A stretch of 64,000 nucleotides of DNA, from the NCBI RefSeq assembly GCF_012720115.1, contig NZ_VNWN01000008.1:1-64000 (forward strand). Direction: 5' to 3'. The position numbers and the translations under genes are program-made. Below are positions 24,444-27,429 of the stretch, one piece after another. Below the pieces are notes generated by a model. That model did no database searches, was not told the DNA's origin, and saw only the letters and a program-made list of their open reading frames with translations. This stretch comes from Sneathiella chinensis. GTDB lineage: Bacteria > Pseudomonadota > Alphaproteobacteria > Sneathiellales > Sneathiellaceae. Positions within the stretch are counted from its first letter, which is position 1. Each line of letters starts with the position of its first letter.

Positions 24444-25001
24444 TCAGACGATATCCGATGGCTCCGGCGATCTTTTACGCCCGTTCAGCATGGCTCTGGC
24501 AAGGTTTTCGCCATGTCGCAGGCTGGCAAAAACAACCCCGCCCACATGCAGCGCCACCAGAAGAAGGATGGTGTTGGCCAGCCCTTCATGCAGGTCCTCC
24601 ACCCACTCGATCCCCCAGAAGGCATCGGTTGTGGTCATCCACCCTGTCAGGGCGGTACCGGACAGGGTCAGGATCAAGGCAATGATCATCCATCCCCCCA
24701 TCGGGTTATGGCCGATATACCGCTTCTCGCGGCCTTGCAGGGTTTCCGTCGCATAGGCCCGAAGTTCCCGATAGGGGCGGACAAACTGCATGAACCGGGC
24801 ATATCGCGACCCTGCCACGCCCCAGATCACACGGGCGGCCAACAGGGCGGCAATGAAATATCCGGTCCATTCATGAACCCGTTCCAGTTCATCCCCGGTT
24901 AGCCAGGCAAGCGCAACCCCCGCCACCAGACTCCAGTGGAACACCCGAACAAACGGGTCCCAGACCTTGACCGTCGGCTCCGTTGCTTCCGTTGGTTCCA
25001 T
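24444..25001 (-). CDS. cytochrome b561 family membrane protein
   Basis: The 185-residue protein has four membrane segments and heme-ligand histidines in RVFHWSLVAG, ERVHEWTGY and DLHEGLANTILLLVALHVGGV, as in di-heme b-type cytochromes of the b561/Ni,Fe-hydrogenase cytochrome b group. It moves electrons between quinol and a periplasmic partner. The ATG with GAGG upstream starts 4 bases after the stop of the PepSY gene, so the pair is one operon. The PepSY protein may be its partner. The operon is divergent from a two-component system that probably controls it. Confidence 0.9.
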   Translation of the reverse strand: MEPTEATEPTVKVWDPFVRVFHWSLVAGVALAWLTGDELERVHEWTGYFIAALLAARVIWGVAGSRYARFMQFVRPYRELRAYATETLQGREKRYIGHNPMGGWMIIALILTLSGTALTGWMTTTDAFWGIEWVEDLHEGLANTILLLVALHVGGVVFASLRHGENLARAMLNGRKRSPEPSDIV

Positions 25002-25005
25002 CGGC

Positions 25006-25284
25006 CTAGTCCTCAACCTTCATTTTCACCATATCGAAGGTCTTCGGATTGAAATAGACCTCAACCCGGCGCCCCTTCTCGTCAATGGCATAGGCTTCAT
25101 AGCAGCCGTCATCGGTCTTGATCCGCTTGACGGTCCAGCCGTCCTTTTCCAGCTTCTGCTGCAAGGCTTCACGAGGTTGCCACTCTGACAGCGGAACCGA
25201 ACATTTGTCATCACTGGCATAGGCCGTGGACATCCCTGAAACACCGCAGGCGACAAGGGTAACAAGCAGGACTTTTTTCATCAT
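25006..25284 (-). CDS. secreted PepSY-domain protein
   Basis: The 92-residue product begins MMKKVLLVTLVACG and has a signal peptide cut near AYA-S. The mature 70 or so residues form one PepSY domain (PREALQQKLEKDGWTVKRIKTDDGCYEAYAIDEKG, then VEVYFNPKTFDMV), with two Cys that could form a disulfide. Either of two adjacent ATGs can be used; AAGGA lies 5 or 8 bases before them. Small PepSY proteins occur with cytochrome b561 and OmpR-type two-component systems, as here. A longer upstream frame was rejected because it would run through the promoter region. Confidence 0.88.
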   Translation of the reverse strand: MMKKVLLVTLVACGVSGMSTAYASDDKCSVPLSEWQPREALQQKLEKDGWTVKRIKTDDGCYEAYAIDEKGRRVEVYFNPKTFDMVKMKVED

Positions 25285-25330
25285 AGGGTTCCTTTTATGG
25301 ATCAACATCTGAAGCCAATATGGAAAACGA

Positions 25331-25349
25331 ACCTGACGGGGACCTGAAG
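25331..25349 (-). promoter_or_regulatory. tandem operator facing the PepSY-cytochrome b561 operon
   Basis: On the minus strand this reads CTTCAGGTcccCGTCAGGT, two 8-bp direct repeats with an 11-bp period, which is the spacing bound by dimers of OmpR/PmrA-type regulators. It lies about 45 bp before the PepSY start codon. The same unit recurs in opposite orientation nearby. Confidence 0.72.
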
Positions 25350-25367
25350 ATGGCAAAAATTCATTTG

Positions 25368-25386
25368 CGTCAGGTTGACGTCAGGT
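25368..25386 (+). promoter_or_regulatory. tandem operator facing the two-component system genes
   Basis: CGTCAGGTtgaCGTCAGGT is a perfect direct repeat with an 11-bp period, about 55 bp before the response-regulator start codon. It matches the unit upstream of the PepSY gene, so the regulator probably controls both transcripts and itself. Confidence 0.75.
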
Positions 25387-25441
25387 GCCACTAGTAAGAC
25401 CTCAGTCTGAAAACACTGACACTGAAACCGGAAGACGACAG

Positions 25442-26101
25442 ATGCGCATCCTTCTGATTGAAGACGACAAGACGCTTGGCAATGCGGTCTACGCCCATAT
25501 GGCGGAAGACGGACATGCCGTCGATTGGGCTCCCACCCTGACAGAGGCCTACGACAATCTTGGCGGCGCGGATTATGATCTTGTTTTGCTGGACCTGATG
25601 CTGCCCGACGGGAAAGGTCTCGATCTGTTGCGGGGCCTGCGCACGGAAGGCAAGACCACCCCCGTCATCATCCTGACAGCACGCGACCAGATAACAGACC
25701 GCATCGACGGCCTGAATACCGGGGCCGATGACTATCTGGTCAAACCCTTCGACCTGTCGGAATTGACCGCCCGCATCGCCGCCGTGTCACGCCGATATGG
25801 TGGCAATCCCAACCCTGTGATCCGGTTGGGCGACGTTGCCATTGATCTTGGCCTGCGCTCGGCCGAGCGGGAGGGGGAGCCGATCCACCTGACCGCCAAG
25901 GAATGGATTGTCCTTGAGGCCCTTCTTCAGCGCCGGGGGATGATCCTCTCCAAACCAAAACTTGAGGAACGGTTATACAATTTCGATGCGGATTTCGACA
26001 GCAACACGGTGGAAGTCCATATCAGTCGCCTGCGCAAGAAACTCGGCCATGCGACCATCACGACCGTTCGCGGTCTCGGCTACAGGATTGACCCCTCATG
26101 A
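25442..26101 (+). CDS. OmpR/PmrA-family response regulator
   Basis: The 219-residue protein has a receiver domain with Asp8-Asp9, phosphorylated Asp51 (LLDLMLPDG) and the Lys of DDYLVKPF, then a winged-helix output domain (about 125-219) with LTAKEWIVLEALLQRRGMILSKPKLEERLYNFDADFDSNTVEVHISRLRKKLG. This resembles the QseB/PmrA group. The ATG starting MRILLIEDD was preferred over an upstream extension. It overlaps the kinase gene by 4 bases (ATGA). Confidence 0.93.
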   Translation: MRILLIEDDKTLGNAVYAHMAEDGHAVDWAPTLTEAYDNLGGADYDLVLLDLMLPDGKGLDLLRGLRTEGKTTPVIILTARDQITDRIDGLNTGADDYLVKPFDLSELTARIAAVSRRYGGNPNPVIRLGDVAIDLGLRSAEREGEPIHLTAKEWIVLEALLQRRGMILSKPKLEERLYNFDADFDSNTVEVHISRLRKKLGHATITTVRGLGYRIDPS

Positions 26102-27429
26102 CGTCCCGCCCCAGTTTGCAAAACCGCCTTGCCATTGGCATCTCCATCGGGGTTACCTTCCTGTGGCTGGCGGCGCTCGCCGCTTCTGCGCTTGTTGTCC
26201 GGCATGAACTGGATGAAGCCTTTGACAGCGCCCTGCAGGAAACAGCCCAGCGCATTCTGCCACTGGCTGTTACCGACATCATCCGGCAGGACAGAACCGC
26301 GCCCTTCCGAACCGTCGAAGCCCTTGACCGGCATGAAGAATTTTTGACCTATCTGGTACGGGACCGGTCCGGCACATTGTTGATCCAGTCCCATGATGCA
26401 AACCCGGATATCTTCCCGGCCCGACCCGCGACCGGCTTTCGCAACACGAAAACCCACCGTATTTACGGTGAAAGCGCGGTTAGCGGGACCCTGTTTCTGG
26501 AAATCGCGGAACCGCTCGCCCACCGCAAGGAAGCCACCTTCGAAGCCATCATGGCCATGCTTCTGCCCCTGTTTGCCTTTGTCCCGGCCACCCTTCTTGC
26601 CGTGATCTGGTTCGTTCGGCGCACCCTGAAACCGGTTGTCCGCTTCCGCGAGGAAATAGAACGCCGAAACAGCGCAGACCTGTCACCGGTCCAAGGCACC
26701 GGTTTGCCGCGAGAAATTGCCCCCTTGGCCGATGCGGTCAATATCCTGATGGAACGGTTGCGTTTCTCGCTGGAGGCAGAAAGAAATTTCACCGCCAACA
26801 GCGCCCACGAACTTCGCACCCCCGTGGCCGCCGCGCTGGCCCAGACCCAGCGGCTGATGGCCGAAACCCGCGATGCCGACATTCTGGCGCGGGCGCAGCA
26901 AATTGAGGGGGCCCTGAAAGGGCTTTCCCGACTGGCAGAAAAGCTGCTGCAACTGGCCAAGGCAGAAGGGGGCGGCGTTCTTGCCGAAACACCAACGGAC
27001 CTGATGGCGATCCTGCCCCATGTGACCGAGGATTATAGTCGCGTTTCCGGAACGGACAGGATCAGACTTGAAAATCCGGCTAATCTGCCGCTGATCTCGC
27101 GGCTTGATCCCGATGCGTTTGGTATCCTGATCCGCAATCTGGTTGAAAATGCCCTGAAACATGGCGCCGCTGACACACCGGTGATCCTCAGGATCACCCC
27201 GGAACAGGACATACGGATCATCAACGGCGGACCGGCCGTTGATCCGGACACCCTCACCACCCTTAAAAGACGGTTTGCAAGAGGGGCGGCCCGATCCGAC
27301 GGCTTCGGTATCGGGCTTGCCATTGCCGATACAATAGCAAGGCGAGCGGGCGGTCGCCTGAAAATACACTCGCCTGCGACAGGACAAGAAGGCGGCTTCG
27401 AGGTTGTTTTGACCCTGCCGCCGCCATAA
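26098..27429 (+). CDS. sensor histidine kinase (QseC/PmrB-like)
   Basis: The 443-residue membrane kinase has a first membrane segment at about 12-34, a periplasmic sensor domain of about 115 residues, a second segment at about 152-172, then a HAMP-like linker. His237 in NSAHELRTPVAAALAQTQ is the phosphorylated residue. The ATP-binding part has NLVENALKHG and GFGIGLAIADTIARRAGG. It should phosphorylate the regulator encoded just upstream. Its signal is unknown; related systems sense cations, antimicrobial peptides or redox state. Confidence 0.92.
   Translation: MTSRPSLQNRLAIGISIGVTFLWLAALAASALVVRHELDEAFDSALQETAQRILPLAVTDIIRQDRTAPFRTVEALDRHEEFLTYLVRDRSGTLLIQSHDANPDIFPARPATGFRNTKTHRIYGESAVSGTLFLEIAEPLAHRKEATFEAIMAMLLPLFAFVPATLLAVIWFVRRTLKPVVRFREEIERRNSADLSPVQGTGLPREIAPLADAVNILMERLRFSLEAERNFTANSAHELRTPVAAALAQTQRLMAETRDADILARAQQIEGALKGLSRLAEKLLQLAKAEGGGVLAETPTDLMAILPHVTEDYSRVSGTDRIRLENPANLPLISRLDPDAFGILIRNLVENALKHGAADTPVILRITPEQDIRIINGGPAVDPDTLTTLKRRFARGAARSDGFGIGLAIADTIARRAGGRLKIHSPATGQEGGFEVVLTLPPP

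Follow-up and report, generated by a model that had tools for sequence, protein, structure and literature searches.

Do the outward-facing tandem repeats that lie between a two-component system and a PepSY/cytochrome b561 gene pair place both under a single response regulator? The initial annotation of the window, by which we mean the whole 64,000-nucleotide stretch of Sneathiella chinensis DNA analysed here, claimed that they do, and the gene neighbourhood that it described is borne out. On the plus strand lie genes for a PmrA/QseB-like response regulator (positions 25,442 to 26,101; identified by Pfam, NCBIfam and a PDB sequence search) and a QseC-like sensor histidine kinase (26,098 to 27,429; Pfam and NCBIfam), whose 2CSK_N, HisKA and HATPase_c domains are recognized while its HAMP domain scores below cut-off. 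Divergent from these, on the minus strand, are a gene for a small PepSY_2 protein (25,006 to 25,284), whose N terminus carries a hydrophobic leader and which has two conserved cysteines, and, overlapping this gene, one for a prokaryotic cytochrome b561 (Ni_hydr_CYTB; 24,444 to 25,016). The response regulator belongs to the OmpR/PhoB family, with matches to Response_reg (PF00072, E 4e-26) and Trans_reg_C (PF00486, E 2e-21).

Two tandem pairs occupy the region between the divergent genes. The left pair, CTTCAGGTcccCGTCAGGT (25,331 to 25,349, minus strand), is composed of CTTCAGGT-ccc-CGTCAGGT and faces the PepSY/cytochrome b561 genes, its last base lying 46 bp from the PepSY ATG; the right pair, CGTCAGGTtgaCGTCAGGT (25,368 to 25,386, plus strand), is composed of CGTCAGGT-tga-CGTCAGGT and faces the regulator and kinase genes, its last base lying 55 bp from the regulator ATG. 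An 18-bp spacer (25,350 to 25,367) separates them, giving a distance of 19 between their 5' ends. Both pairs are found with zero mismatches where the initial annotation had placed them, with an 11-bp period and pointing away from each other. Within the window, CKTCAGGTN3CKTCAGGT is matched without mismatch twice; allowing up to two mismatches, 100 dinucleotide-preserving shuffles gave a mean of 0.06 matches per shuffle, and in none of them (0/100) were two reached. Of the 72 CKTCAGS units on both strands of the window, only these form 11-bp-spaced pairs.

Conservation was assessed in the 200 bp upstream of 22 response regulator orthologues, of which L009-L013 come from the same family and L038-L054 from named genomes. 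Absence of the repeats from orthologous promoters would have spoken against an operator; instead, minus- and plus-facing tandem pairs with an 11-bp period lie in the corresponding position in 17 of the 22, a count of loci that share ancestry, are only partly independent and include the near-identical L009 and L011. At each of these 17 loci the joint pair score was reached in 0-2 of 300 shuffles, and their titles span Rhodobacteraceae, Rhizobiales and Reyranella, among others. Two further orthologues (L043, L049) keep the left pair alone, and three (L050, L052, L054) have neither pair; in all three the divergent PepSY gene is likewise missing. The half-sites are the most conserved columns of the alignment, and they share the unit C(G/T)TCAG(G/C), that is, CKTCAGS; the recognition unit CKTCAGGT, initially proposed as exact, is thus too narrow, position 7 being G or C and the T at position 8 not fixed. 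Within the genus, an orthologue of the regulator is present in only five of 25 genomes (G000, G002, G003, G014 and G020, among G000-G024), so the system is patchy, through gain or loss.

Individual loci depart from this pattern in several ways. In one same-genus genome (L194:4150-4230, the upstream region of L010) the operator now forms an extended perfect inverted repeat, cttaccttgcggaatgctgaagc ... gcttcagcattccgcaaggtaag, whose outer half-sites are symmetrically altered to CGCAAGG. On a contig titled as a Burkholderiales MAG (L041), a regulator 65% identical to that of the window is accompanied by a weaker operator, by transfer or mis-binning. In a Yoonia MAG (L039) the PepSY-cytochrome b561 genes lie about 2.3 kb from the regulator, which retains its own operator, and the site upstream of PepSY has the inverted layout with a 16-bp gap and a weaker match (L039:1651-1760 and L039:3906-3956). 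In Bradyrhizobium and Sphingomonas (L083, L085, L088), the genes for PepSY and cytochrome b561 run in the same direction as those for a less closely related regulator and kinase, in an apparent operon; the association of these four genes therefore recurs in a different arrangement.

The position of the pairs relative to candidate promoters was examined in the 17 loci aligned on the operator. On both strands, the mean match to TATAAT is highest exactly at offset 9 past the end of the pair, a peak equalled by shuffled flanks, with all 30 offsets considered, in no more than 1 of 2000 trials (P<=0.0005), also when the window was excluded. In the window this places predicted -10 hexamers at 25,317 to 25,322 on the minus strand (CATATT, PepSY/cytochrome b561 promoter) and at 25,395 to 25,400 on the plus strand (TAAGAC, regulator/kinase promoter); the latter is weak taken alone, matching at 3/6 positions, and a sigma-70 consensus promoter scan of positions 25,200 to 25,500 gave no match. 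The second base of the -10 hexamer is usually a conserved A, and an A is found there in 11/11 aligned loci on the left and 9/11 on the right. With its end 9 bp upstream of the -10 hexamer, each tandem pair stands in for a -35 element, which would be the position expected of an activator contacting RNA polymerase. Since such a hexamer lies beyond each pair, both the regulator-kinase and the PepSY-cytochrome b561 promoters look directly activated.

We then asked how specific these sites are. CTTCAGGTcccCGTCAGGT and CGTCAGGTtgaCGTCAGGT are the sole zero-mismatch matches to the pattern in the 3.55 Mb genome, and the five further matches at one or two mismatches are at control level (7 forward plus reverse versus 4 for a reversed-pattern control). 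The words CTTCAG and CGTCAG occur often in the genome, and a looser unit pair gives 36 matches at up to one mismatch; of the 30 of these examined for a second target, all outside the locus lie wholly or partly in open reading frames, one of them spanning the stop codon of an apparent lpxB. A sequence model (R1), built on 12 orthologous operators with the window excluded and giving rough E-values, ranks the operator first in its own genome in both orientations (E 2.2e-7 and 1.1e-5), and the next matches (E 0.085 and 0.43) fall inside long open frames. The genome scan for which the repeat had been recommended thus yielded no further target, and since no other examined match is wholly non-coding, this locus alone appears to make up the regulon defined by the motif. 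Across 385 class genomes, which are partly related and not independent, 12 have an R1 match at E<=1e-4, each with a related regulator gene at the operator; 11 of the 12 fall among the 19 genomes with a regulator match below E 1e-65, and in the twelfth (G234) the regulator at the operator is less closely related. That the repeats are chance or low-complexity sequence, or a DNA-structure element with no regulatory role, would fit the frequency of the CKTCAG-type words just noted, but the shuffles, the fixed position of the -10 hexamer and the specificity of the model all speak against chance. Conservation in orthologues rules out the chance-repeat reading, and we consider this whole class of explanation barely credible.

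Whether the opposite orientation of the two pairs is itself evidence for dual control, as the initial annotation held, can be judged from related loci, in many of which a second composite operator lies inside the neighbouring gene block. Nine of these (L039, L040, L042, L044, L046, L048, L051, L185 and L186) have a 5'-end gap of 16 bp, in a search that allowed gaps of 10-30; 16 is also the value of most divergent operators. These second operators are one-way, judging from a gene order predicted by open reading frames and homology, and a -10-like hexamer at offset 9 whose second base (-11) is A follows the gene-facing pair in 9/9 cases and the away-facing pair in 0/9; mean -10 scores are 2.56 and 0.56, respectively (Mann-Whitney P 1e-4). 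The away-facing pair is often closer to CKTCAGS than the gene-facing one. Because the same inverted quadruple occurs at one-way promoters, opposite orientation by itself is no proof of dual control, and the discriminating evidence at the window locus is the -10 hexamer on each side. The claim that the regulator controls both operons accordingly stands on other grounds than orientation: conservation of the repeats, their tracking with the regulator gene and the fixed 9-bp distance to the -10 hexamer on both sides make regulation of both the regulator-kinase and the PepSY-cytochrome b561 operons through this operator well supported at the sequence level.

The nine one-way cases also bear on the sign of regulation. 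As the away-facing pair is kept there without a -10 hexamer, the presence of a pair does not by itself imply activation, and repression or a roadblock would be compatible with the sequence; the site might then be mainly a repressor site or a mixed one, at which one pair activates while the other represses or merely aids binding. At divergent loci, however, the -10 hexamer stands at an activation-type distance of 9 bp on both sides, a spacing for which a repressor has no need, and we judge repression or mixed action unlikely. The identical layout at the one-way promoters argues that what is conserved as the operator is the whole set of four half-sites. A gap of 16 places the centres of the inner half-sites 22 bp apart (2 x 11); the gaps in the window (19) and in L044 (34), L047 (27), L053 (25) and L197 (13) deviate from this value, so the 22-bp register is preferred and not absolute, and a rigid register fails in the window. 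We give about even chances to an arrangement in which two regulator dimers bind head-to-tail on outward 11-bp repeats, with inner centres 22 bp apart and all four half-sites on one face of the DNA. Such an operator would work as one unit at one-way promoters too, its away-facing pair there perhaps anchoring the weaker promoter pair strongly from upstream, and would switch divergent promoters together.

Which regulator binds is suggested by the relatives of the adjacent one. By sequence, its best structural relatives in the PDB are PmrA/BasR (8JO2, 4S04/4S05), and in the NCBIfam ranking the PmrA model comes first and QseB second for the regulator, while QseC comes first for the kinase. The regulator scores 221.9 bits against the PmrA equivalog NF007928 (cut-off 330) and 206.2 bits against the QseB equivalog NF007663 (cut-off 345); being under the equivalog cut-offs, regulator and kinase are PmrA/QseB-like and not members of these groups. 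In Salmonella and Klebsiella, PmrA recognizes hexamers (for example CTTAAG and CCTAAG) separated by 5 bp, binds them head-to-tail and contacts DNA through Lys153, Thr187, Asn188, His193 and His195 (PMC3973317). The layout here is alike, an OmpR/PhoB-family regulator having two hexamer direct repeats 5 bp apart with an 11-bp period near its own promoter and a predicted head-to-tail arrangement. The PmrA-type half-site CTTAAG/xTTAAT is not present in the window or its orthologues, which have CKTCAGS; CTTAAG and CTTCAG differ by one base. A further difference is that two outward-facing pairs here make one conserved operator. The best reading of the feature, on these comparisons, is a variant of the PmrA box.

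Among regulators that have the operator, 19/20 have Ser at residue 195 and 20/20 have Arg at residue 196 (PmrA numbering), versus His195 and Asn196 in PmrA; His195 is found in 31/66 of the other regulators compared. The changes at 195 and 196 may be linked to the base change in the half-site. The residue at 195 also tells against binding by a different OmpR/PhoB-family regulator such as PhoB, with the adjoining regulator a bystander. The PhoB box is likewise a direct repeat with an 11-bp period, and candidates are plentiful, since 26 matches above threshold to the regulator query in this genome point to many paralogues; yet every strong class-wide model match adjoins this regulator clade or a relative, and the site is single in the genome, unlike a PhoB regulon. 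We therefore hold another regulator to be very improbable. The adjacent PmrA/QseB-like regulator is, to judge from the sequences compared, very probably the protein that acts here, through a composite operator bound by one dimer per pair, with activation of both divergent promoters and a local regulon.

The proposed sequence of events is as follows. The kinase would phosphorylate the regulator, a dimer of which would occupy each tandem pair in head-to-tail orientation, with each CKTCAGS, at the 11-bp period, taken by one monomer, as PmrA structures suggest. Bound in the place of a -35 element, the dimer on the right would recruit RNA polymerase to the regulator-kinase promoter, amounting to positive autoregulation, and the same recruitment on the other side would serve the PepSY-cytochrome b561 promoter; on both sides geometry and conservation are observed, and activation is the presumed outcome. 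The two outward pairs would be one conserved composite operator, which in related bacteria also serves other promoters next to the regulator; being single in this genome, it would define a local regulon. The PepSY protein might also feed back on the kinase, and PepSY-type proteins reportedly serve as auxiliary regulators of a Caulobacter two-component system.

The targets hint at function. In enterobacteria, EptA is a PmrA target. The window's own genome, searched for the lipid A phosphoethanolamine transferase EptA/PmrC expected of a PmrA regulon, has no EptA_B_N match, and the target block in the window consists of cytochrome b561 and the small PepSY_2 protein alone. In related loci EptA does lie beside the system, with PAP2 in L187, similarly in L189 and with diacylglycerol kinase in L193; in one genus, tandem CKTCAGS-type pairs lie directly upstream of EptA phosphoethanolamine transferase genes, which are followed by PAP2 (L187:5386-5403, L189:4243-4260). 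Elsewhere the neighbouring block encodes DUF2271, a PepSY_TM-flavodoxin-NAD reductase and ApbE (L184), or the reductase and ApbE (L185). Clusters of this flavinylation type (PepSY-like/DUF2271/ApbE) have been proposed to reduce extracytosolic iron and are tied to Fur and iron (PMC8238504, eLife 2021; PMC12004947, with Caulobacter CCNA_03155-03159); CKTCAGS-type operators adjoin the same components in the related loci, whereas the window has just PepSY_2 and cytochrome b561. The papers searched describe no tie of this two-component system to these clusters, and give no matching report of such a system with PepSY plus cytochrome b561 or of an inverted double-tandem OmpR-family operator. The nearest parallel is Salmonella PreAB: in the part of that study considered here, the targets of PreA activation include its own operon and genes flanking it, and the cytochrome b561 gene STM1253 is PreA/QseB-activated (PMC2653508). 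The present proteins differ in scoring far under the equivalog cut-offs, and a PepSY_2 neighbour is not described in that part of the study. Taken with STM1253, the DUF2271/PepSY/ApbE and EptA neighbours suggest, by analogy, a likely role in envelope, metal or redox stress.

For divergent regions generally, these results supply a rule: opposite-facing operators are insufficient to establish dual control, and the -10 hexamer on either side should be checked. For the uncharacterised PmrA/QseB-like clade to which this regulator belongs, they provide a comparative, predicted binding-site model, and they tie the clade to PepSY, cytochrome b561, flavinylated ferric-reductase-type modules and EptA in different bacteria.
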